From Diprion similis (taxonomy: Eukaryota > Arthropoda > Insecta > Hymenoptera > Diprionidae): DNA of 64,000 nucleotides. The notes beneath the pieces are model-generated. The model was not told where the DNA came from. It was given only the letters and a program-made list of their open reading frames with translations, and did no database searches. Location of the stretch: positions 6,014,001-6,078,000 of the forward strand of contig NC_060114.1 in the NCBI RefSeq assembly GCF_021155765.1, read 5' to 3'. Positions 9,607-61,200 of this stretch are shown in pieces; the stretch's first letter is position 1, and every line of letters starts with the position of its first letter. The position numbers were made by a program, and so were the translations under genes.

Positions 9607-12106
9607 ATGGAAATTGTAGAGACTCCTCTTTCGCCCCCAGCGTCACCAAGGCTCAGGCCAACACACGTAAGTTTTACTTGATCCTAAAATGTGAAAAAGC
9701 TTATTTCAGTTGGAAAACCGCGTGTAGTAATATCACGAAATTAAATTACGCGCCTTTCGTTGTATTATGAAAATTTTCTAATCTTTGTTTTGTTTCCTTT
9801 CTTCTTTTCCAACAGGTAGAACCAATGCAATTGTCCTTCAGCGTAGCTGCGCTTCTCGGTGATAAACTATCCGAAAAAGGATGTTGCAACAGCGGTAACA
9901 ACTCCATGAGCATCAACAAAAACAACAACAACAAAAACAACAACAACAATGGAAACGGCATTATAAAAGTAAACTTGAACTACAGGACGGCTTCGACGCA
10001 TCCTGACCTACCGCCAACACCGCAACCATCCGATGGTGAGGATGATGAACCACCGAACAAACGACGATGTGTCGAGAGATGCGAGCTTGCCAAGGTGATT
10101 ATCTTATCTGATTTAGCATTTATTATATACGTATTTATCTACATATATGCAGCGTGCTATAGTCTACGTGTCGATTCAAACCGCATTCTACTGCGACTTA
10201 TTATCCCGATACTTTTCTGTAATGCGGATTTCGATATTCAGTCCATGAACAATACCGTGCAAATCGAGGTCGATTCAATCCAGCCCACCGGAGGACGCAA
10301 CAGCTGTCCAAACACGTTTGCGTGTATGCAGATGAAGATGCACAAAGAAATTCGGTACATGTAATAAATGGAAAAAAAAAAAAAACTCATGGCACGACCG
10401 CACGAAAACAAAGGTTTTTCCAAAATAAAACTTAGCACTGAAACCTGACTTACGCGCCGAAAATACCCGCTCGAGTAATATATAATCGATTCTAAACAAT
10501 GGGATTTTTTCTTGATTGGATCTCTTATAGTCGTTGCTCAAAATATTGAAACGGCTTATAACCGTAAATATACAAATTCGCACAGCGAATCATGAGTAAC
10601 TTCACATTTGAATCTATTAAACTGAACATACCCTTCAGACGTATTCACGATTGATTATTATTGAGGCGATCCAAGTTTGATGAATGTGATAGTACTATTG
10701 GAAAAAAAAATAGGGCATCTTGTCAGCACGACCTTCGCACAATCCTGAAACACGATTTCGTATAAGATCGTTATCAAGTTTGGTAATAGTCATTGATATC
10801 GGAACGTTAAATCTTTTAAAGCATTCTTGTATGATTTCTAGAACACCTTTAAGATTTTTATAACGAATGACGTCTTTCAGATAAAGCTAGCTTCAAAACT
10901 GGCATATCTTATTTTGATACGAAATTCAATTGACCAAGTATACAAAATTCGAGAAGATTCTTCCACTAACATTACACTTTGCTTTACATAAAATCAAAGA
11001 TGCCTGAAACCCGGAGGCATACACATATATCGATTTCAATACGTCTTCTTATTGACACAATTTCCAGGAGCTTTATGCCCTAATTGTGGGCGCGAAAAAT
11101 GGTTACACAACACACTGACAATGAGTATAATAATTCGACCAAAGTGCACAACTGTAACTATATTTAGCCGAGTCGATATAAGTCCCCGATACGTTATACA
11201 TACAAGACTGCAATAGCTAACTCATCTCTAATCAAACCGTCACTGATGAATTGGTTACAGTTACTGTTGGGAGGAGAAACGCCGCCACCGAGTCCGGAGC
11301 CGCCTCGAGCCTCGGTGATAATGCGAGCGAATCGTGATGGAACATGCAGCCCGGCGACTCTGTCGGATCTAATCTGCAGACCCGGAAGTTCAACCGAAGC
11401 GCGGGAAGAGCGTCCAGCCGCAGCAGCGCCGCCGCGTCGGCCATCGCCAGACCCGCAGACGGAGAATGTGCTGAAGAGCTTAAAATTCAAAATGGGAACC
11501 CGAAAAGAGGAGATATTTGTGAACAGCAAGAACACGGACCGAGACACCAACGTGGCTCAACCAAAGCTCCAACTCTTGGCGCCAAAACCTGCTCCCGTCA
11601 CAATGGTTACCGGAATCGTCGGCTCTCCTTTGGTCCTTCCGCAAGCTCCGCTCTTCCTGGTCACAACTTCGGCTGCCGCACCGTCGGCGGCGCCACCGTC
11701 AACGACTCCGTCAGTATCCGCATCGGCCGCCCGACGTCGCGTTTGGGAGTGCGAACACCCGGGTTGCGGCAAAAACTATTTCAAGTCGTCTCACTTGAAG
11801 GCCCACACCCGGACGCACACCGGCGAACGGCCCTTTCCCTGCCCTCACGAGGATTGCGGGAGGCGGTTTTCCAGGAGCGACGAACTCTCCAGACACAAGC
11901 GGACGCATACGGGCGAGAAGAAGTTCGTTTGTCCTGTATGCCAGCGCCGTTTCATGCGTAGCGACCATCTCGCGAAGCATGTCAAACGGCATTCTCGAGA
12001 CAGAGTTCAACCCCAGCCGCAGCCTCTGAGGCTCAGTCTGCTGCCCGTTATTGCGCCCCGAGTTCAAAATCAGCAGAATCCACTGCCTCCTAGATTGGCA
12101 GCGTGA
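9607..12106 (+). CDS. cbt: KLF10/11-type zinc-finger transcription factor (cabut)
   Basis: A nuclear DNA-binding factor of the TIEG/KLF10-11 branch. Coding exons are 9607-9666, 9816-10094 and 11261-12106, joined in phase 0 with GT-AG introns, giving 394 residues. Residues 277-357 hold three C2H2 fingers joined by HTGERPF and HTGEKKF linkers. The recognition helices KSSHLKA, RSDELSR and RSDHLAK are the KLF/SP pattern for GC or CACCC boxes. The N-terminal exon has clustered SP and TP dipeptides (TPLSPPASP). Exon 2 has an [10 protein letters not shown] helix that could be a Sin3-interaction motif, an Asn-rich run and an acidic [12 protein letters not shown] patch. The C-terminus is short and proline-rich. 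An in-frame TAG shortly before the exon 3 acceptor rules out a longer exon 3. Three fingers at the C-terminus with this N-terminus fit cabut better than SP1 or luna. Confidence 0.82.
10095..11260 (+). other. cabut intron 2
   Basis: This 1.17 kb interval separates coding exons 2 and 3. It starts with gtgatt, a usable but weak donor, and ends in ttacag. Reading through the donor adds about 90 meaningless residues before a stop, so the interval is treated as an intron. I see no other gene or clear repeat in it. Confidence 0.6.
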
Positions 12107-23644: not shown

Positions 23645-24330
23645 TTTAACATGAAATCTATTTTCAAAAATGTATCATTTTCAGCATGTAATACTCACAG
23701 GTGTGACTTATCAGTGTAATGATATTACATTGCGCTCTGTCTACTAAGAAATAGTATTTTTTGTGGCGATGTAATATTTTCATGGTATAAATTGTGCCGT
23801 AATAAAAGAATACCAAGTGAATGCGAAATTATCAAACACCTCTAGCTATTTTTGAGTTATTTTATGGGTAATTTAAAAAAGCTTCTCGATTCTCCCCCTC
23901 CGATTTTCTCTTGCACTCAACCGTGATGATCAGGGTTATAGGGGATCTGACGTATAGAAGCTGCAACGTGGTTGGTTGCATCGAAGCCATTGAGCCAATT
24001 TTCATTTCTGGTTAGTTAATTCCATCGCCCATAAACGGTTGTAATTTTTTTTGTAACTCTGCTAAGCGTGGTAACATCGTCATAGCTTCGATCGATATAT
24101 TTACCAAAAAGACTTTTGTGAAATGCATTCCAGAAAGGAAATCTATTTCAAATCAAAAAACCGAATTTTCCAATCGTTACTTCAAATCTCTGATGTGAAA
24201 ATATCGGATTCTGGAAAATAAGTTTACAGAGCTGCGAACAGAACGAACCATAACGAGATAGTGTCTTATGAGTTGTTGGTGATGACTTATGGTGATTACA
24301 TATTGTATGAACTGAGTTCACTAAACATAT
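23645..24330 (+). pseudogene. Decayed duplicate of Pvr-like Ig exons 10-13
   Basis: This stretch aligns by eye, introns included, with 29360-30310 of the intact receptor gene in the same orientation. The counterparts of exon 10 end, intron 10, exon 11 (about 23880-24027), intron 11 start and exon 13 (about 24133-24270) are present, while most of intron 11 and exon 12 are deleted. Breaks: a Cys codon of the exon 11 ACATGTAGAAGC stretch reads TAT instead of TGT; the exon 11 donor gtgagt has become gttagt; in exon 13 the codons for Glu-Tyr have become Lys and a TAA stop at 24219-24221; and the Ig Cys codon beside it has also changed. Because introns are retained it arose by DNA duplication, not retrotransposition. 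Confidence 0.82.
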
Positions 24331-24927: not shown

Positions 24928-27900
24928 ATGGAACGTGTCGGTTATACCTGGGCTTTGGGAGCTTTGGCATTATCAGGTTTATTTCTGGGTAATTTTAATG
25001 AACACATACTTAAGGGGTAGTTGCACATCTTTTTTTTCAAAAAAATCGACTTTTTAAAAACTATAGATACTTGCAGTAATTATACGTAGAATAAATAGAA
25101 ACTACTATTTCAACTAGAAAGTTCGAGAACCGGTTGAAAAATGTGAAACAATGGAAAGATCTTAGTAAAAAAAGGAAATCGCGGTTTTCTCGAAATAACG
25201 TTTTTGACGCGGCTGACATTTCACAAAACGAAACTATTGCACCTATCAATCTGAAAATTTAACGGCTTATTCCTCATATGTATATGCTATATACTGAAGT
25301 TCCATTAAAATTAATTATTGATATTTAATCCATTGTTCAAATAATTTAAGTTGAAAAAAGGTCAAAAATTTCAAAAGTCGGCAAATTTTTTTTTTTTTTT
25401 CATCAATAGAATTTGCATAATTCTGTTTCAGGCGATTGCAACAAGTGTACTTTTTGACAATCTCTTTTTTTTCCTCAGAAGTTTTAAAGTTGAGATATCG
25501 TGTCAGCCAAATTTAAAAAGGAGTAACTTTAGACGACCATACCAGCGAAATTTACCATAAAAATAGAATCAAAAATTCTCTTTCATGTGTCACAAATTTG
25601 AAATTATTAAATGAAAATTCATTTGAAAAAAATGTTATTAAAAAAAGTCATTAAGATGTGAGTGAATTATATTAAAAAAACTTTTTTACGAGGAGTTGTC
25701 CAATTTTCGGCCTGACATACTTTCGAGTATTTATAATAAATGTTGAGTTTTGAAGCCCAAAATACTTCGTACCACAAAGTTTTCTAAATATTCAATCTGC
25801 ATTTTCACTGCTGATGAATATGCAAGTAGAGCATGAAGTTCGAGTTTTTCGATAGCACACTATTTTCATATTTCTTGAATACCGTAACGATCTCGTGCAC
25901 GTAATTGAAATTTCTTTCCTAATTTCAAAATTATACGCCTACGTGTGGTTTCAGTCTTATTTTTATCACGGTCTTACTTTTCTGGTATTTATAATAAAAT
26001 TGCTGCGTTCGTCGTGTTTGTTTTCGATTTTCCTGCTTCTCTTTCGCATGTGTGTAATCATTCACCTCCGATAAGACAGCTACACTCGTGGATATTCCGA
26101 GTTCATTAGGCCAAACTTAATCTCTACGGGTCGAAGACTGAGTCACCTTGAAATTGCAACTTACTCATATTCTCACTCGAGTTGTTGGATCGTGATCTTA
26201 GGTAATGAATAGGTACTGCAATAGACTCAAACGATAATCTCCCTTCATACGGTAGTCATAAGACCGAGGCTTTCAATTTTAGAATATCATGATCACTGCT
26301 TTCGTTACGAGTCAGTGAATGTGATAATATTTATTTGGGTTCAGCTGTTTACTGATCTTTTTAAAGCTCGATTAACGTTACTCGCAGTTGATCTGTAATC
26401 AGTCGACAAATTTATAATTAATCAATCGTTACATCCTTCTCAACAAAAGTCACCTATTTTTCTGCAGGTATCACGGCTCGGAAACCAAACATGATTCCTG
26501 CGAAAGCTGAGTTGCTCATTCAGGAAGGAGACAATCTGATAATATCATGTCAGGGTGACGACGACATTCAGTTTTCATATATGGATATTCCGTATCATGC
26601 ACGTGTTGTTTCTTACGCTCATATATGTATTCATTGACGCTCGCAGTCCGATGATGACGGTTCTGCAACATTCTAAAAGATGTGTATAATCATTATCGAT
26701 AATGAATTTTTAGGATCTGCACTGGTATTACAATGTCACGTTTGACAAGAATTCTGGCCTGCATACGTTCATTCGTCCTAATGCCACGTCGGAGGATACT
26801 GGATGGTACGCTTGTGCTTACAAGGATATAAAAATAAAGAACGATGCAGAAACTATCGAGCATCCTGACGAAAATATCACTTGGATTTACGTCTACGTGA
26901 ATTGTAAGTAATAATGACTTTAAATATCTGTGAAAAGTTCTCATATACCTGAATATCTTAGAATGAACCTTTTATAATCGTTTTGCTGGATTAACGCTTT
27001 TACTAGCTAATCGAATTTTTACTACTGGATCATGTATCGCCTGGTAGTAATTTTGAATCTTTCAGCATCTAGCATATTCGCGCCTGATCCACCGATCTTC
27101 GAACATTACTTAAAGCATTTCATTGGGCAAAAGACCGGAGGATCACTGGTCATACCGTGTCGACTGAGTACGCCCAAAAAGCTGTCAGTTTCGTTAAAGC
27201 ATTTCAGCGGTTCGGTAAGTGCAGCGTGCAGATGAGACCTATTGAAGGTGAAGTGCAGTTTATAGAATCGAACTGGAGAAAGAAGCTTCTCTGAGGAACT
27301 CATTGTGTCGCAGTTCAATAAGCTTCTTTTTCAAGATAGTACATGCAGTACATTTTTAGGGTTTTATAACTTGAAAACAAACTTTGTAAACTTTTTAACA
27401 TTTGCACAGTGAACGTGTAATACTAATCGTACATTGCAAACCTAATATTTTTTTACATTATTTCACCACCATATTTCGGAACTCAGTTATGTAGTGCAGA
27501 TTCAATAATTGAATTGAGTCTATTAACCGAAACGATTTCTTTAACTTCTTGGTCGGTGGTATTTCCTGACGTGCTATTAGATTGGCGTTCACTTTCAAAC
27601 CAACTATATTGTACCAGTGAATGTATTTCGTATAGTTTCAACCTCCTTGATTATGATACCTTATGTTTATTATTCATAGAGTTCGAAGTTGTCAGCTGCT
27701 GGTTTTCAATACGACCCAAAAATTGGATTTATCAAACACAATGTTAGTGAGTCGTCGAGTGGCACATATATGTGCCATATATCACACAGACATCACTACT
27801 TAAATCCAAGTTGGTTTTATCTCACAATGCTGAATTATGAAGTTTTAATAGGTGATAAACTTTATTCAATAAAGATTTCAATAGTAACTATAGAGTGTAA

Positions 27901-30900
27901 CGATAACAAGTAGACACTTATTTCGACAGACACCATTCTTTTTTTTTGTCGATATTCTAGCTTGTGTTTGAAATGGTGGAATCTTCTTAACTTTTATCCT
28001 CATACCATTACGAGGAGGTGCTAAAAATATTTTTCAATATTCTGTAATACTTTCTCGATCTATAGCCGATCAGCTTGGCGAACCACTGCCACCACTCGTT
28101 GACAGGGAAGAATTTCGAGGTTTGGCATGGGGACAAAATCACACTTTTAACTGTCATTCGGCAGATGATAATGACGTACCGTTGCAAGTGGAGTGGAGAG
28201 TTCCATTTTCGGTACCCGTAAGTATCACTGATAACGGTATCGAGCGAAATTTTCGAAAATACTTGTATCCTGTATTTAGCGATCGCAAAAAAAATCGCGT
28301 TAACTAACTTTCACGGGGTTGGAATAGTTTCAAGGCAGTCGAGGTCGTTGAATTTGAATTTTTGAAAGTATTCTCGAGTTTTCTCGATCCATGAATTTGC
28401 GCTAACTCCAGAAACCGGATAACAATATGGTGGAACATCGATTCGAATACTATAGTTAATAACTTGAACTAAACACCGAAATTTCAGAGAGAGAGGTTGC
28501 TCCAAATTCACAATGACGAAATGAGAGCAGCACAATTGACATTATTCGATGCTCAGGAAAGCGATCGCGGGGATTATACGTGTACCAAAATAAAACGATA
28601 TGTAAAAAGTAGTGTAACGATGCATGCGGAATTTAACGGTGAGGGCAATAATCTGAAAATCGCAATAAAAATGAGCCGATTTTTGAACGATGCGAAACAT
28701 GTTACGATTTTCCCCAGATCCAGATATTAAGTACATCAACGTGACCGCGTCCAGTGGGAATGCATCTTCCGTGACTGTAGTTGAAAGAACAACGGCAATT
28801 TGGAATTTGTCCATCGACACATATCCCAAAGCATATACCGTTGAATGGTAAGCCATGCTCTTAATTCTGAATTCTAATAATGTGCGAAAGTTTAAATGAA
28901 CGATATATTTTGGATGAAATTATTGTTTTCGTCAGTTGATATTTCATCGTTAACGTTAATAATGATTCCAGGATGGACAGATATAATCGGCTAATTACAA
29001 ACTCTAGCAAGTATTTGCACACTCAATCACGAACGAACAATACTTTCAAAATATTTGATGCAACAATGGCTGATATCGGTGTGTACACACTTTTCATCAG
29101 CACTCTAAACTACTCCAACTACTATGAACTCAAATTGATGGTTTTAGGTAATACCCCATAAATCCGCATTCAAATCGTCACCAATTAAGTTGACCAAATT
29201 CTTCTAACATGGCCGATGAATTTACTTCACAGCTCAACCAGTCGTTCGTATTGTCAATTCTGTTTCCTATCACACACAAGGACAACCTGCCGTCTTTTCC
29301 TGTTCCTCAACAGGCTCACCGTTACCAAACATAACGTGGGAATATTTGGAATACCCTGACTTTCCGTCGAAATCCGTTTCCAAATACGCATCATTTTTGG
29401 TAAGTAAAACTCATAGATGTAACTTATTAGTGCTGTAATATTGCATTGGGGGCATTCAGATGAGAAATAATTCTATTCAAGTTATAGCGTAAACTGTGCA
29501 GGATTAAAAGAAAATCAGGTATACACGCAAAGCGATCAAACATTTCTAACTTTTTTATTTATCGTAAGAGTAATTATTGAATTTTCTGCATCAAATCCAG
29601 AAAATCCGAGACGAAACTCATTCATTCTACTTCGAAATCCTCTCGCATTCAACCATAAGGATCAACGCGACAGGAGATCTGACATGTAGAAGCTGCAACG
29701 TGATTGGCTGCAGCGAAGTCGTTGAGCCAGTTTTAGTTTCTGGTGAGTTGATTCCACTGACCATAAACGGTTAAAATTTTTTCTGCCGAAGTTTCTACTC
29801 AGCAAAACATCAAATTTTCAATAATTATCCTTAAATTTTGAATAACAGACGCAAACGGATATTTCGGTGTAATGGATCCAGGCACTGTGGCGGAAGGTGA
29901 TACTGTCAATTTAACGTGTGGCGCTTCCGTTTATAATTTCACCAATAATATTGCCTGGGAGGTAAACAACTCCACGGAACACGGTAACGTCGTCAAAACT
30001 TTGTTTCACATCCTTTGATATGCACCTTGGATTCGTATAAACGAGCAGACTCAATTATATTTACTAAATAAAGTTTCGTGAATTTATTCCAGGAAGGGTA
30101 TCAATTACAAATCGAACGACAAAATTTACCTTCCAATCGATACTTCAAATCTCTGACGTGAAAATATCGGATTCTGGAGAATACGTTTGTAGAGCTGAGA
30201 ATAAAGAAAATCACAACACGACGACGGTGTCTTACGAGTTGTCGGTGAAGGGTATGTGCATTATGGTGATTTCTGTTTAGATGTACCGAGTGAACTGAAC
30301 GTATATTTATCATTTGCGCCGGTTTATACTACTAGAAAGAATAGTACATGTCGATATAAGGGCGACATGATGGGCATTTACAGCGAGTGCGATGTTTTTA
30401 GCACGAACCGTAGTCGAGGCGAAAGTAAGTGCTAAAAACATCGCACGAGTCTCAACACCTCATGTCGCCCTCTTATCGAACACTGTTTTTTATAACAAAT
30501 GTATGAAAAAGTTGCGCACAATTGTGACACAGTCTCTGGACGGTATGTCACGAATTACGATGCCCATAACTGAAATGGCTAAACCACGTGGCGCGCCAGA
30601 AAGGAATTGTGCGGCACGTACCGAAAACATCGCGCCAGATTGAAATACGCTCAGAGATGGCGCATCGATAGCATAAATTGAGCTTGTTATGCTCGCTAGA
30701 CATGCGCAGAACGTTTTGCGCAGGTCTGGCGCGTGATACTGACGGTGGCTCTGCAAATGTCAGAAAAGTGCCACAATATGACCGCTTCCGAGGCCCAAAC
30801 AAGCAACTTTTTCATACATGCGTTATAAAAATGAAAATACAATTAATATAAGGTACTAGAACCACAAAGTCTCAGAAAAATCTGAAATTTCTATGCATTT

Positions 30901-33191
30901 CAAGAGTGCAGGTTGCTCATGTTTTCAATTGACTGTTTTAGATGCGCGTGTTCCATCAATCAGTGATAAATCAACCACAAACAATACTGAAATTGGAATT
31001 GACTTAACAAACGACGAACACGCCGAAGTGAGACTAACTTGCTTTGCACGTGGGTTGCCATACCCTGAAGTAACATGGCTGAAGGTAGTTACAAATATTT
31101 CATACCACCAAATATGTATTGACAGCTAATTTCTTCGTTGATGAAATAATTGTTTGAGCAAATTTCGAGAAACATCACTTACATATGAGTTACTATGAAA
31201 AATTATAAAAAAATCAAGAATTTTTTACGTACAACAAAATGAAATTAGAGCCTAAAATTTATTCATTTATTTTTCACTAAAATTTTTGAGTGATGTAACT
31301 GAATTTCTTTGCATAAGTTATTCAATTGAAAAGGCCAAAAGTTGAAATACTGTTGATGAATTATTAACTTAGATTGATTTATCTTATGAATTTTTTCAAA
31401 TAAAATCGTGTATACATTTGAAGGATTCTTGATTCCAATATTTAAGGTACCTAACAGACTTGAATTCGAACTTTTCTAATTAGTTTCATACGCAATAATC
31501 GCATATTGGATATTAATGAAATTCATCTGCTCGTGAGCTAATAGAATTTCCTTTAGATCTCCTGAAAAAAATCTTAAAATTTTAAAATTCCTTAGCTTAA
31601 ATATGTATTTTTTCTCTCAGAGTATTTCAAAATTAGGAAAAACCCACCAGATTTGATCGATATCATTCAACAGATTAATATTCTAATGGATTAAAAATCT
31701 GTTCAATATGTATTCATCCCTATCTGTGCGCACTTTCTGAAAATAGCAATCATTTTGCAAGAAATTCTGAATCAATTCAAAGTTTTACGAAACATTGAGT
31801 GGATGCTCGTAAAAACTCTTAAATCAGTCACGTGTCACCACCCTCAAAACACCTCAATGCGAACTATTGCAGTGTGAGGTTGAATGGTATTAGGATAACG
31901 GCAAGAATTCGTGAACGAACAAATATCCGTTGCTGTAAACCGAAATATAAAGACATGGTTACTGAAATTACATTCAAAGGTTCTCGTATTACATTTATGT
32001 ATACGTCTTTATTATAAATTTCAGTAATCGCATGAAATAAACACAGGCCAAAAAAAACGATTATCGTATTTATGACTAAAGTGTTAATTTGATCGCATAT
32101 CACATTGAGTTGATCTTTGAAGTCATTGGAGTCAATAAACTTAAAGAAGTTTATTTGATTGTATTGTTAGTTTATAGAGTCTTGTTGATACTGTATAATA
32201 TGCGACTCAAAATTCGGATACGTATTTCAAAAACAGTTGCAAATTTGTTTCAATTTTTTTTTTTTTATCATTTTAAGTGTTCATTACAGTTGTAATCAAT
32301 ATAATACTTTCAATTCAAATCAATAAAAATTCCATTGGCAAATCCTTCGCGTAGTTGGTTCGATGACATGGCTTTGAATGAGTTACCTTCGAGCAGTTGA
32401 CTTACAAACAAACTGACGACGAGTGTTGGTACAGCGAGGATTGTCCAACCTTATGGTGTGGTTGGCAGTATTTCACTTATTTCTCAATGTACTCATCTTA
32501 TTCCCGTTTGAATTTTGTACAGGATGGCAAACCACTCGTCAAGCACAGCGAACAGTACGCAATTTCAAAAAATAATTTTGAGCTGTATATCAAATACTTT
32601 CGCGGCCTCGCAGACGGCGGAAATTACTCGTGTCAAGCTAAAAATCGTGTTGGCACAATCGAGAGATATATGAATATTATAATCACAGGTAAAAATTTCT
32701 CCGAATGATTCCAAAAAGTAACTTGTACAGTATAATATTCATTAATGTCTTTCGCTTTTAGCTATCTTCTCATTTTCACTTTCTTTCAGACCGAAAAAAA
32801 GTTAGCCGAAAGCGAAAGGCATTAATGAATATTATTGTATATCACCTAAAAACCAAAGTAATGACCGTGATATAATTTACAGATAATCGGTCATACAATT
32901 ATATAATATGGATCAGTTCGATCTGTGTTCTGATCGCAATACTCGTTGCACTGATAATTTATACGAGGTTGAAAGTTAAAGGACCAAAGGTAAGTACATT
33001 GTTGGCACTCTTGCGACAAAAATCAACACAATATTTACTTAATTTTATTTACACAGAATTTGAAAAGGGAAGTCCGAAGGATGGCGTTGTCGGAACTTGA
33101 TCAACAGCCCTATGACGACTCTGTGAACGACGAAGATGAGGTAATATCCAATAATCAAGAATCCTCTCGAGACCGACTTATTCGACTGTAA
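24928..33191 (+). CDS. Kinase-less VEGFR/PDGFR (Pvr)-like receptor, seven Ig domains and one TM helix
   Basis: A cell-surface receptor-like protein. Exon 1 (24928-24988) encodes a signal peptide. The other exons are 26468 to about 26590, 26714-26903, 27066-27214, 27680-27851, 28066-28217, 28488-28638, 28718-28847, 28972-29147, 29233-29399, 29601-29742, 29849-29983, 30093-30251, 30942-31084, 32523-32688, 32883-32989 and 33057-33191. There are two exons per Ig domain with phase 1 between domains. D1 has DLHWYY and ends in WIYVYVN, D2 has LVIPC and SSGTYMCH, and D4 lacks both Ig cysteines, as in VEGFR/PDGFR D4. Many N-glycosylation sites. The TM helix runs from YIIWISSICVLIAILV. The tail has SELDQQPYDDS, like the receptor juxtamembrane segment, then stops at TAA 33189-33191 before any glycine loop. 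No kinase motif follows. It is probably a decoy or co-receptor (inference). The donor after D1 exon 2 is unresolved: no good phase-0 GT was found. Confidence 0.75.
24989..26467 (+). other. Pvr-like intron 1
   Basis: A 1.48 kb intron between the signal-peptide exon and Ig domain 1. It holds T- and A-rich tracts and a segment around 25010-25700 that reads like a degraded transposon, but clear termini could not be set. I see no gene in it. Confidence 0.5.
30351..30479. mobile_element. Foldback element in Pvr-like intron 13
   Basis: The left arm 30351-30404 (TCGATATAAGGGCGACATGA to GATGTTTTTAGCAC) pairs with the right arm 30429-30479 (GTGCTAAAAACATCGCAC to TCGCCCTCTTATCGA). The loop is about 24 bases. 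The arms are long enough to form a stable hairpin in the pre-mRNA. Another TIR element starts about 11 bases downstream. Confidence 0.75.
30490..30828. mobile_element. MITE with about 28-bp TIRs in Pvr-like intron 13
   Basis: The left end, 30490-30519, starts TTATAACAAATGTATGAAAA. The right end, 30800-30828, is its near reverse complement, ending CATGCGTTATAA. The element is 339 bp with no transposase. It carries AGATGGCGC at 30655-30663. TTATAA at each tip could be part of the TIR or a palindromic target duplication; this cannot be decided from one copy. Confidence 0.7.
31085..32522 (+). other. Pvr-like intron 14
   Basis: A 1.44 kb intron that splits Ig domain 7 after VTWLK. It is AT-rich with no coding exon that I can recognise. 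The neighbouring introns 10-12 and 16 are only 67-201 bases, so this one has probably been enlarged by insertions. Confidence 0.5.
32728..32840. repeat. Near-perfect hairpin in Pvr-like intron 15
   Basis: The left arm 32728-32763 (beginning about CAGTATAATATTCATTAATG, ending TTTTAGC) and the right arm 32802-32840 (GCCGAAAGCGAAAGG to TTATTGTAT) are inverted copies with few mismatches. The stem is about 36 bp and the loop about 38 bases. It could be a tiny MITE or a microRNA-like hairpin transcribed with the host gene; no known microRNA was recognised. Confidence 0.7.
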
Positions 33192-34390
33192 AGATTTACA
33201 TTATTATAGTCAGTAAAAGCTTGTCAGATTTTTATACTCAGGCAATATTTGTTTACGAATAATTTGTTTTATACTCCAAGTTCAATTATACGATGAACCT
33301 GCTTGTACATAATATAAATTACATGAATTTGTATATTAAGTATTTCTTTCCCCACTCGTTCGGTAACGGAAAAGCATCGGAAAGAATACTACTGAGGTAT
33401 ATACGTACAGTACTTTGATTAATTTTATGTTATTAAGCTCTTTTTAGGTTAGGGCTGGTTTTGAGTACTTTCTTTCATTTCGTTTTGGTAGGGAGCAGGT
33501 AATCATCAGGCAACGAGGCTCTAAATCATTGGAAGTTACCGAAGAACTTTCCTTGTAATAAAGTTAAGACCATCTGTTCATTAGCTTATAAAATTTTTAC
33601 GTATGGTAATAATCTTATGTTATTGTCTGTTGTTCAGTTGCAAACTTTACGCTTGTTATGAGCATTTATAAACGAAACTAATAATCATTCGGGAATCTTG
33701 CATTATCGCATTATGTTATGAAGTAGAGGTCAATTGCTCTCTCTTTCTAAGAATTTTATAGGCTGTGTCGATTGCTGCGTAGAGCTTGCCAGGGACGTAA
33801 TATATACGAGATCCCCCGATGCTCCAGTATTGTAACAATCTCGAATGACCAAGAAACAATTTGGGGTGCGTTATTAAAAGTTCTGTAACATTTTTGAGTA
33901 AGAAAAAAAAATATACTGATATCTTTAAATTGTAATTTACGTACATTTTTATTTTATCCTAACTAATCCTCAATGTTTACTAAGAACATTGAGTTTCCAT
34001 ACAAATTTGAAGTTTAAAAGTTTTTAACCTTACAATAATTGATGTGTTATAAAAAAAAAATTTGCAATTTCGGTCGCGGGTCGCAAAATTATTAATCGAG
34101 GAACCTGCCTCTATCAATATCGTCACCCGATTGCATTTTTTATTTATCTAAATCAAAACATTGGTATCGTCAATCAGTAGTCGTGTTCTGCAGTGCCGGT
34201 AAAGCCTGTTGAAATTGTCGGTAACATTATTATCGATCTGAATTCTATGATGTCGATGTTTTAATAAATAAAGTTTTCGATTCTTGTCTTATGGAAAATT
34301 TCTCTTAACACGTATTTCACTGCATCAAAGCTTCTCAATGCGTCGTGAAAAAACAAAAAATTCCCAAGACCTTCCGTTCGTGATTTTCAA
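33192..34390 (+). other. Pvr-like 3' UTR and downstream repeat
   Basis: No kinase exon or other coding exon was found after the stop. AATAAA signals occur at 33557-33562 and near 34263-34270. The segment 33960-34075 is a copy of a dispersed repeat also found at 40478-40590, sharing the exact word CTAAGAACATTGAGTTTCC and an A-run. The segment 33716-33740 shares GTAGAGGTCAATT with the same second locus. Confidence 0.5.
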
Positions 34391-40477: not shown

Positions 40478-40590
40478 CAATCACTAAGAACATTGAGTTT
40501 CCATACAAATTTGAAGTTCGAAAATTTTGAATCTTACAATAATTAATATGTTACAAAAAAAAAATTACTAGTAATTTCGGACGTTTATTT
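40478..40590 (+). repeat. Dispersed repeat, second copy of the 33960-34075 sequence
   Basis: This segment shares CTAAGAACATTGAGTTTCC, ATACAAATTTGAAGTT and CTTACAATAATT, followed by an A-run, with 33960-34075 in the same orientation. The flanks at 40456-40475 and about 40693-40712 form an inverted pair around a GGTCAAT core. It looks like an unclassified dispersed element. Confidence 0.6.
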
Positions 40591-58200: not shown

Positions 58201-61200
58201 GATATAAATAAGGATAATCTGATATTTTTGATTATCTAGATGAATATAATGATAATGTTGTCTTATTGATTATGTACATAAAAATAAGAATAAGCTGATT
58301 TTATTATTGATCTAGATAAAAATTAGAATTATTTCATCTTGTTGATGATCTAGATGGAAATAAGTATGATCTTATCTTCTTAATTATCTAGATATAAATG
58401 AGGATAATCTGGTATTTTTGATTATCTAGATAAATATAATGACAATATTATCTTGTTGATTATCTACACAAAAATAAAGATCATCCAGTTTTCTCGATTA
58501 TCGTGATGAAAGTAAGGATAATCATATCTTCCGGAAAGATAATTGCATGAGAGATAATTTTTCATTTTATCTCGATTAATCTCTTCAGTAATATGAATAA
58601 TCTCATCCAATTCATCTATAAATAATAATAGCATTAATTACATCTTGCACAAGACTAAATCATGCTTACCTGTTCAAGAGCAACTAGTCCAGCGAGCTTT
58701 GTCGATATTTCCTTTGCCTCGTGCAACTGTCGATTAATCCAGGGTAAAATATGATCGTCGAGAGGTGAAAACAGATCCTTGGCATCGCCTCTCCTTGCGA
58801 TTTCAGCATAGGATCTAAGAAGTCCAGCCTTGGCAGCCTCGACGGTCGCAGCAGCTTTGAGGTCCTTCATGAGTCCTAGAAGCTTGACCGGAACTTTTCT
58901 CGAATCCTCGATGACGCAGGATTCCTCCATCAGCTTTAGAACCGTCTCCAATTCGTGTTTTGCACAAATTCCTACGCCTTTTGCGTAGCAACTATCGTCG
59001 GGACGAGTTCTTGCCAGGTCGATCAAAAGCTGCGTGTGCGAAACGTCCTGTGTCACGGAGGCCAGGAAAGGAGCTACTCCTGGTTTGTTCGCCACTCGTG
59101 ATACCAAATCGCTCGAAAGCTCTGTGCTCCAGGATTCTTCCTCAAGCAGAACGCTCTCTTCTAGTAATTCTACGATCTCTTCTTCCCAGGGATCCGCGCT
59201 GTGACGAAACCAGTTTCCAGATTTAGTTATTGTTTTTTTTTTTGCAAAGAGATTCCATGCGAGAGGAAGACACACTTAAGTTAAATTCTTTTATAAACTT
59301 CTGTGAATCGACTCAAAATTTAGTGTGCTATTCACAGTTTTTTCAAAATTTATATAAAATGACTTAATGAATTAATTTCTGGCAAAAAAAATTTTTAGTT
59401 TTCACGATTCTAGAAATTTTCCGACAATTTTTTGTCCACTCATTAACGATTGCAGCAGTCGTGAAATTTTATGATATTGCAAAAGTAGTGAGTCGAAATT
59501 TATCACAAAGGTAGATGAATGGAAAAGACAAGGGAGTGACGACGAAGTTTTACCGCCAGAATTGAGTGAAAATGAAGAAATTGAGAAAATAGTAATAACC
59601 TATTTTTACGATAAGGATATTCAACGTTGAAAAATATCTGCAGAATGGTTTCTCCTACCTATAAGAATGATCTGCTTTATTCGCTGCCGGATCGTTTTGC
59701 AGTTTGTTTATTATTTTCGTCAATTTCGGAACCCAAAGTTTTTCTAAATGGGATCCGATCAGCGGAGCTGTGGACCTTAAAAATGACAGCACGGCAACGT
59801 GATTTTGATGATCACCCAATAATTCCAGGCACTTTCCGAGCACAAGGGAAGCATGGAAATTATTTCTTAATCTCTCGTATTGCTCGTCTTGGATTATTTT
59901 CACAGCCATTGACGTCAGTGCACGCGTCACTGGAATTACCTGCAAAATGAAGGAAAAGTAAGTCGTTCGTTGTAATTTTAAATTGCTGAAATTGAAACAA
60001 TTAAAAAAACTAAATGATTTATAAAATTTGTAAAAATATGACAAAAGATGATCACAAAATTGAAATATTGTGAAGAAACGATAAAAAATTAAGATAAATT
60101 ATTGAGAAAATGATATCAAATTACGTAAAACAGTGAGGAACGGACCACGCAAAATGAGTGAAAGACCTTTGAAAAACTGTGGAAACGGTTTGTAAACGAT
60201 GAATAAGGATAGAAGAGACTTTGCCGAAAAATGGTAACAACGTCTTTGAAATAATTTAAAAAATGTCTTAAACATTAAATAAATCTCTAAAATCGATAGA
60301 GAATCTGTCTGAGCGATTGAAAAACCGTAAAAATTAATAATTATTGAAGAAAAAGACCTGTACAAGAAATTTTGAAAAACAATATGTTAAAGAACAAAAT
60401 TTTGTAGCTTACAGATGATGTAGAAGAAAGAGGATCGACCAAAGAATTCAGCAGAAGAGACCACAACCAGCTTTCGGCACCATCGACTGTTGTCGCAAGT
60501 AAATTGAGGGCCTCTTCGCAGGATTGTCCTTCGTCGGTTTTAGAACTGCACTGCATTACCTGTAAAAAAAATGAAAAAATTGAATACCAAATTGAGGCGA
60601 TTTAAATAATTATTTGGATAGAATAGATCAGCAAAATGTGAGTAATTTTATAGATCCCTACCATGAATCGGACGAAACAAGCTCGCTGATCAGGAGTTAA
60701 AAGCTTCATTGATCTTGCAGCGATTGCTGCGATAGCTCCGACCAACTGTCGCGCGTTTCCCTCGTGCAGAGATTCCTGTAAGCTTAAAGCTATCCGCTGA
60801 AGGGCTGAATCATCCTGAAAAATTGATGAAATCGTTGTTAAGAATGAATGGAGATTTTTAACTGATTTTTTCTCCTTCCCATTAAGCTTTCCATTCAGTG
60901 ATTCAAGCATTTAACTCGCTGGTGGTATTCTGGTCTAGAAATTAAAAAAAAATCTTTAAGAATGACGAACAAAAAAAAAAATGTCGCGTTTGAAATGGAA
61001 GAAGGAACATTATGTGAGGCACGGATTGCTGATGAAAAAAATTTAGGTATAACATAAATTCCCAAAGTTGAGAAAATAAGACAAAAAAATGACATCGATT
61101 AACACATGGACGCCGTTTTGCGAAATTTTTTTTTTTTTTTCAAATCGCCTACGTCCGACTAATCCTACACCCTTTTTTTTTTACGAATTCACAAAAAAAT

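Follow-up and report, generated by a model that had tools for sequence, protein, structure and literature searches.

A Pvr/VEGFR-type receptor paralogue without a kinase in Diprion similis, a candidate membrane-bound ligand trap

Pvr/VEGFR receptors are class III/V receptor tyrosine kinases (RTKs) characterized by a cysteine-less fourth immunoglobulin (Ig) domain, D4, and in insects Pvr drives the survival of blood cells, migration and the response to wounds. Receptors stripped of the kinase include soluble FLT1, a secreted VEGFR ectodomain that traps ligand and is generated through alternative processing of RNA from the full receptor gene, and planarian nou-darake, which is grouped with FGFRL1 as a kinase-less membrane receptor. 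Here we describe a gene of Diprion similis predicted to encode a kinase-less paralogue of Pvr/VEGFR-type receptors, lying in a 64,000-nucleotide stretch ("the window") of contig NC_060114.1, hereafter C10 (C10:6014001-6078000), in an assembly of 269 Mb and 60 contigs (GCF_021155765.1).

Kinase-less RTK paralogues are already known in kind, in the FGF and insulin receptor families. FGFRL1 is a genome-encoded, membrane-anchored RTK paralogue without a kinase, for which a decoy function was proposed first and other roles later (PMC2754479). The window gene resembles it in being a separate, membrane-anchored and kinase-less gene, but belongs to the Pvr family and has seven Ig domains, whereas FGFRL1 is of the FGFR family, has two or three and, to judge by the title of the same paper, occurs in all major metazoan phyla (PMC2754479). 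SDR, the secreted decoy of the Drosophila insulin receptor, and DAF-2B of C. elegans are described, in the accessible part of their source, as kinase-less ectodomains that sequester or may sequester ligand (PMC7041946). They share with the window gene a receptor ectodomain without a kinase and differ in belonging to the insulin-receptor family and in being secreted or probably soluble, DAF-2B moreover being a splice form and not a gene. Soluble FLT1 is likewise a secreted product of RNA processing, whereas the window gene is a separate gene with a transmembrane (TM) helix. Expansion of VEGFR-type genes is known from other insects, VEGFR orthogroups being reported as expanded in two polyembryonic wasps, and the available part of that report mentions no kinase-less members (PMC5977540). 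We found no description of a kinase-less Pvr/VEGFR paralogue in insects among open-licence papers.

The window gene runs on the plus strand from an ATG at 24928 to a TAA at 33189-33191, exactly the span 24928..33191 first proposed for it. In the spliced model, 17 exons join into an 824-residue open frame with no internal stop and with GT-AG borders at 16 of 16 introns. The eight introns that lie between domains (after exons 1, 3, 5, 7, 9, 11, 13 and 15) are without exception in phase 1, and one further intron splits each of the seven Ig domains into two exons; the relative termed copy A (see below) matches residues 20-67 and 73-131 as separate blocks, consistent with an exon 2/3 border placed at residue 67. 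The putative signal peptide was called by eye from the hydrophobic start, D4 (residues 339-440) contains no cysteine while the other six Ig domains have at least two each, and the TM helix spans approximately residues 752-771 (hydropathy maximum 3.13 at residue 752). The model, the cysteine count and the hydropathy thus bear out the ectodomain plan of the original prediction, made from the letters alone, with seven Ig domains of two exons each, a cysteine-less D4 and a TM helix; the cytoplasmic tail, put there at about 60 residues, measures 52 (773-824).

As to family identity, residues 153-221 in D2 match the Pfam VEGFR-1-like Ig model PF21339 (30.5 bits against a cut-off of 27). Several Pfam Ig families have matches over the length of the protein; three further models, those for the VEGFR N-terminal domain, the VEGFR fifth domain and PDGFR D4, fall below cut-off. 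A PDB search aligned VEGFR1 (5t89) over residues 37-643 with an E-value of 3.3e-18; titin and DSCAM rank at the top through D6-D7, with VEGFR2 third and VEGFR1 fifth. A PF21339 profile search of the genome gave zero matches and missed the window gene itself; since D2 is split by an intron, this null carries no evidence of absence. The helix distinguishes the product from a soluble decoy, which has no membrane anchor, and the seven Ig domains, together with best listed matches outside C10 that are Pvr-type (on C11 and C7), distinguish it from an FGFRL1 orthologue. Of the Pvr/VEGFR hallmarks, the gene has a putative signal peptide, seven Ig domains, a cysteine-less D4, a VEGFR-type D2, a single TM helix and a juxtamembrane exon, and it does not have the split tyrosine kinase domain; it is therefore a kinase-less paralogue and not a receptor kinase. 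As in other kinase-less RTK paralogues, it is its own gene, combining an RTK ectodomain, a TM helix and a short tail, with kinase-bearing relatives in the same genome. This structural part of our reading, a receptor without a kinase, is nearly certain.

The absence of a kinase at the locus was supported by several searches. A tblastn of five genomic kinases, extracted from eight loci, against the window returned nothing convincing (best E 0.12). A kinase family search of the genome yielded at least 147 matches (best 124 of 423 candidates scored), and none of the matches listed lies in the window. Queries with the Pvr kinase N-lobe (29 of 29 candidates scored), the juxtamembrane exon (20 of 20) and a C-lobe motif (116 of 116) gave no match near C10:6.05 Mb, the closest Pvr-type kinase matches on C10 being at 3.46 and 10.45 Mb. 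These results agree with the earlier statement that no kinase motif occurs before the next transcription unit.

Relatives were sought with the window protein, giving at least 69 matches in the genome (best 55 of 123 candidates scored); among those listed, 16 fall in its own exons, two in a broken piece upstream and the rest elsewhere, the best on C11 and C7. Of the best listed matches outside C10, two on C11 and one on C7 precede Pvr-type kinase exons. On C11, three copies, A, B and C, stand in tandem. Copy B (piece L036) comprises a second D7 exon, a TM exon, a juxtamembrane exon ELLPYDKKWEFPRENLKLG that ends AELLPYDKKWEFPRENLKLG, and a kinase N-lobe exon starting GKQLGSGAFGVV; VEGFR2 is the best PDB match of its juxtamembrane and N-lobe exons, the top 16 are all VEGFR1 or VEGFR2, and PDGFR, FLT3, CSF1R and KIT follow. 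Copy B is thus the separate kinase-bearing Pvr for which a search of the assembly had been proposed, and has an Ig ectodomain, a TM exon and a juxtamembrane exon related to those of the window gene, differing in the kinase that follows. Copy A (piece L037), about 6.5 kb upstream of B, likewise shows the second D7 exon and the TM exon, after which comes a short tail exon closed by a stop, and neither the kinase family listing nor the N-lobe and C-lobe queries place a kinase match between A and B; A is therefore another kinase-less copy, built like the window gene. A third truncated candidate, possibly broken, lies on C7 (6736.8-6744.6 kb): its D7 and TM match are followed by a juxtamembrane match that an in-frame TAG interrupts, and the genome queries found no N-lobe or C-lobe match behind it. 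The predicted paralogue is thus kinase-less and has separate kinase-bearing relatives, but it does not stand alone: the genome has at least two kinase-less copies, perhaps three, within a large Pvr-family expansion. A lone D7-like Ig match, 46% identical to copy B, was also seen at C11:6701135-6701290 (minus strand), with no juxtamembrane or N-lobe match nearby, and may be another fragment or kinase-less copy.

Alignment of the tails places the end of the receptor with some precision. The closing RDRLIRL of the window protein, which resembles RDRLKLG of VEGFR2, aligns with RENLKL(G) of copy B, and so the stop sits approximately where B splices into its kinase, at that splice point or at most one codon from it. 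Two elements of the original prediction, the RDRLIRL end and a stop exactly where the kinase should begin, hold in this form, the latter as the end of the juxtamembrane exon. A third, PYDDS as a juxtamembrane motif, does not: it is out of register with the LPYD motif of the family, whose place is taken by EVISNN, and LPYD is not kept. An NDEDE(V/L)I block common to the tails of the window gene and copy A aligns with AELLP of copy B. The tails of the window gene and its relatives are diverged.

The wider family is large. We found 19 Pvr-type kinase loci, with N-lobes 50-100% identical to copy B, on C1, C5, C7, C9, C10 and C11, none of them near the window and each with a juxtamembrane match nearby. 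They group as three close loci, eight at 61-62% and eight at 50-54% identity to copy B; the remaining 4 of 23 N-lobe query matches, at 37-46% identity, resemble kinases of other receptors. The juxtamembrane and N-lobe matches at these loci remain apart, as if by introns, hence the loci were probably copied as DNA. Kinase matches at model positions 4-73 and 122-233 had been considered SR-protein kinases, an assignment rejected when the N-lobe and juxtamembrane searches showed them to be Pvr-type. The C-lobe motif, typed after a crustacean PVR1 consensus in the available part of its source (PMC11024359), found the copy B C-lobe best (73%); other receptor kinases rank second and third (C12:12351348, 58%; C6:9815500, 53%), so that this motif alone does not discriminate.

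Ectodomains at the kinase loci were harder to recover. A D7-TM query did not find Ig domains at the 16 more distant Pvr-type loci, but an Ig search of the genome (best 150 of 511 candidates scored) placed a match some 4 kb ahead of one such kinase (C10:18580917); the idea that these 16 lack Ig ectodomains was dropped as unproven. The matches listed by that Ig search do not include the window gene's own Ig exons either. Across 27 kinase loci fetched by position there was no convincing ectodomain match, the best being L032, taken as an FGFR from its kinase, with only two weak window-protein matches in one place (E 6e-4 and 0.004). On the ligand side, PDGF/VEGF domains gave 10 matches, of which seven pass the Pfam cut-off, so that possible ligands are present. 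These seven and an eighth that narrowly misses the cut-off lie on C2, C6 and C8, four of the seven within 0.2 Mb on C8 (11406-11598 kb), and the ligand family looks expanded too.

The history of the kinase loss was approached by comparing D7, TM and tail in three sequences, the window gene, copy A and copy B. The window gene and A are identical at 61 of 129 positions, against 49/130 for the window gene and B and 48/128 for A and B; for the tail exon alone the counts are 17/41, 9/43 and 10/41. Among the matches listed, most comparable D5-D6 blocks are likewise 53-55% identical to the window protein in A and 39-45% in B. In the simplest history, the A lineage of the C11 array lost its kinase a single time and a copy then moved to C10; this is likely, and only likely, given that the closer likeness to A is mainly in the tail. 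The broken piece (exons 11 to 13) some 0.6 kb ahead of the start codon is 78-80% identical to the gene, indicating that copying has gone on at this locus too.

Taken together, we consider it probable, by inference from one genome, that the window gene is a kinase-less Pvr paralogue that arose by duplication and acts as a membrane-bound trap or dominant-negative partner. In such a scheme, a duplicated Pvr paralogue would have lost its kinase exons, probably once, in a C11 tandem copy whose descendant moved to C10, leaving a membrane-anchored seven-Ig receptor that ends at the juxtamembrane exon. With an intact VEGF-binding-type ectodomain, a TM helix and no kinase, it could take up ligand and join full receptors in pairs without passing on a signal: it would bind PVF-type ligands through D2-D3 and either sequester them or pair, by way of its membrane-proximal Ig domains, with full-length Pvr-type receptors, and signalling would be damped without phosphorylation.

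Several observations pull the other way. With the juxtamembrane exon of copy B as query, neither the window tail nor that of A was retrieved at E up to 10, and the tail of A retrieves the window tail at E 0.17 only, so that the argument for homologous tails relies on where the exon lies, its phase and the alignment. The donor of intron 2 is weak (26608 gtttct). The pairing with A is uneven by exon, the D7 exon being nearly as close to B (27/52) as to A (28/52), the TM exon having its best pair in A and B (18/35), D1 in its second half nearer to B and C (55%) than to A (49%) among the matches listed, and one copy B block at D5 reaching 53%; two separate kinase losses are therefore possible. Constraint between the window gene and A (dN 0.38, dS 1.6, dN/dS approximately 0.24) is weakly shown, dS being near saturation and the sequences only three. 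The exon-by-exon identities weaken the single-loss history and with it a broader proposal, which we now hold tentatively and at less than even odds, that the two or perhaps three kinase-less loci form a dedicated subfamily, born of kinase loss in the tandem array and selected as membrane traps that would buffer an unusually large Pvr/PVF system.

Other explanations of the gene were weighed against a trap or dominant-negative partner. In one of them the short tail itself would serve signalling or adhesion, so that the receptor does more than trap ligand, as is reported for FGFRL1, which a review credits with functions other than that of a decoy. The tail keeps the acidic NDEDE(V/L)I block in common with A and has a tyrosine at 799; it has no Pfam domain at E up to 0.01, its last 15-20 residues differ between the window gene and A, and we regard this as unlikely. 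Somewhat less likely still is a decaying duplicate, truncated and yielding no useful protein, as the weak intron 2 donor, the broken piece just upstream and the C7 copy, with its in-frame TAG and no N-lobe match, would suggest of a family that does yield broken copies. Against decay, all 17 exons are open with GT-AG at every splice site, dN/dS is about 0.24 (near saturation), and the kinase-less design is common to copy A at only 47% D7-TM-tail identity, which would make the frame long-lasting if one shared loss gave rise to both. Rapid ectodomain change alone is no sign of decay, since ectodomains of kinase-bearing copies also diverge fast: between copy B and the C7 kinase receptor, identity is 44% in D7 and 87% in the N-lobe.

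The remaining two readings are far less probable. That the gene is a normal Pvr, with kinase exons further downstream or joined by alternative splicing, is strongly disfavoured. A donor-like GTAAAG overlaps the stop at 33188 and a gtaata string lies near 33140, after the GATGAG codons near 33138, where its use as a donor had been named as the outcome that would undo the prediction; this string falls mid-exon in copies A and B, A reading GATGAGCTGATACCA there, and the kinase searches of the window and of C10 point the same way. Least probable of all is an Ig-superfamily adhesion molecule unrelated to Pvr, suggested by the titin and DSCAM matches through D6-D7 and opposed by the VEGFR1 alignment, the VEGFR-type D2 and the C11 and C7 copies, three of which lead into Pvr-type kinase exons.

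Features of the locus and its relatives are collected in Table 1. Within the gene, intron 15 contains a 104-bp near-palindrome (32732-32835) and intron 13 a pair of 29-bp inverted repeats about 290 bp apart (30487-30831), which suggests small mobile elements. A repeat of about 95 bp occurs twice, shortly after the gene (33979-34073) and at 40483-40580, the two copies being 88% identical. Open reading frames at 17.2-20.2 kb on the minus strand resemble mitochondrial trifunctional protein alpha, the one tested having no Pfam match.

Table 1. Coordinates of the window gene, its surroundings and its relatives (positions without a contig are those of the window)
Feature	Position	Strand	Basis or remark
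Exon 1: start codon and hydrophobic start, putative signal peptide	24928..24988	+	Gene model, by eye; phase 1 donor
Exons 2-3: Ig D1	26468-26607, 26714-26903 (26468..26903)	+	Gene model; exon 2 donor gtttct weak
Exons 4-5: Ig D2, VEGFR ligand-binding domain type	27066-27214, 27680-27851 (27066..27851)	+	Gene model; PF21339
Exons 6-7: Ig D3	28066-28217, 28488-28638 (28066..28638)	+	Gene model
Exons 8-9: Ig D4, cysteine-less	28718-28847, 28972-29147 (28718..29147)	+	Gene model
Exons 10-11: Ig D5	29233-29399, 29601-29742 (29233..29742)	+	Gene model
Exons 12-13: Ig D6	29849-29983, 30093-30251 (29849..30251)	+	Gene model
Exons 14-15: Ig D7	30942-31084, 32523-32688 (30942..32688)	+	Gene model
Exon 16: transmembrane helix	32883..32989	+	Gene model, hydropathy; aligns with the corresponding exons of copies A and B
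Exon 17: short cytoplasmic tail (juxtamembrane exon), TAA-terminated about where copy B splices into kinase	33057..33191	+	Model and alignment
Possible poly(A) signal, first AATAAA/ATTAAA-type hexamer 3' of the stop	33557..33562	+	Pattern match only
Partial, broken duplicate of exons 11 to 13, lacking most of exon 12 and containing stops	23908..24282	+	78-80% identity to 29640-29782 and 30056-30248
Three-finger C2H2 protein, neighbour gene	11168-12103	+	Pfam
Maestro-type HEAT-repeat protein, neighbour gene	58658-59275	-	Pfam
Copy A	C11:6617.3-6621.9 kb	n/a	Tandem with B and C; window-protein matches
Copy B	C11:6628.5-6635.1 kb	n/a	Tandem with A and C; window-protein matches
Copy C	C11:6640.4-6646.3 kb	n/a	Tandem with A and B; window-protein matches
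C7 window-protein matches	C7:6736.8-6744.2, 8132.1-8141.0, 9302.8-9303.2 kb	n/a	Among matches listed

If the window gene is a natural Pvr decoy, it would be a case of VEGF trapping outside the vertebrates, evolved by gene duplication and not by alternative RNA processing. Its setting inside a large Pvr/PVF expansion makes the idea of dosage balance testable, and the gene, if the reading is true, may act as an inbuilt restraint on growth-factor signalling.

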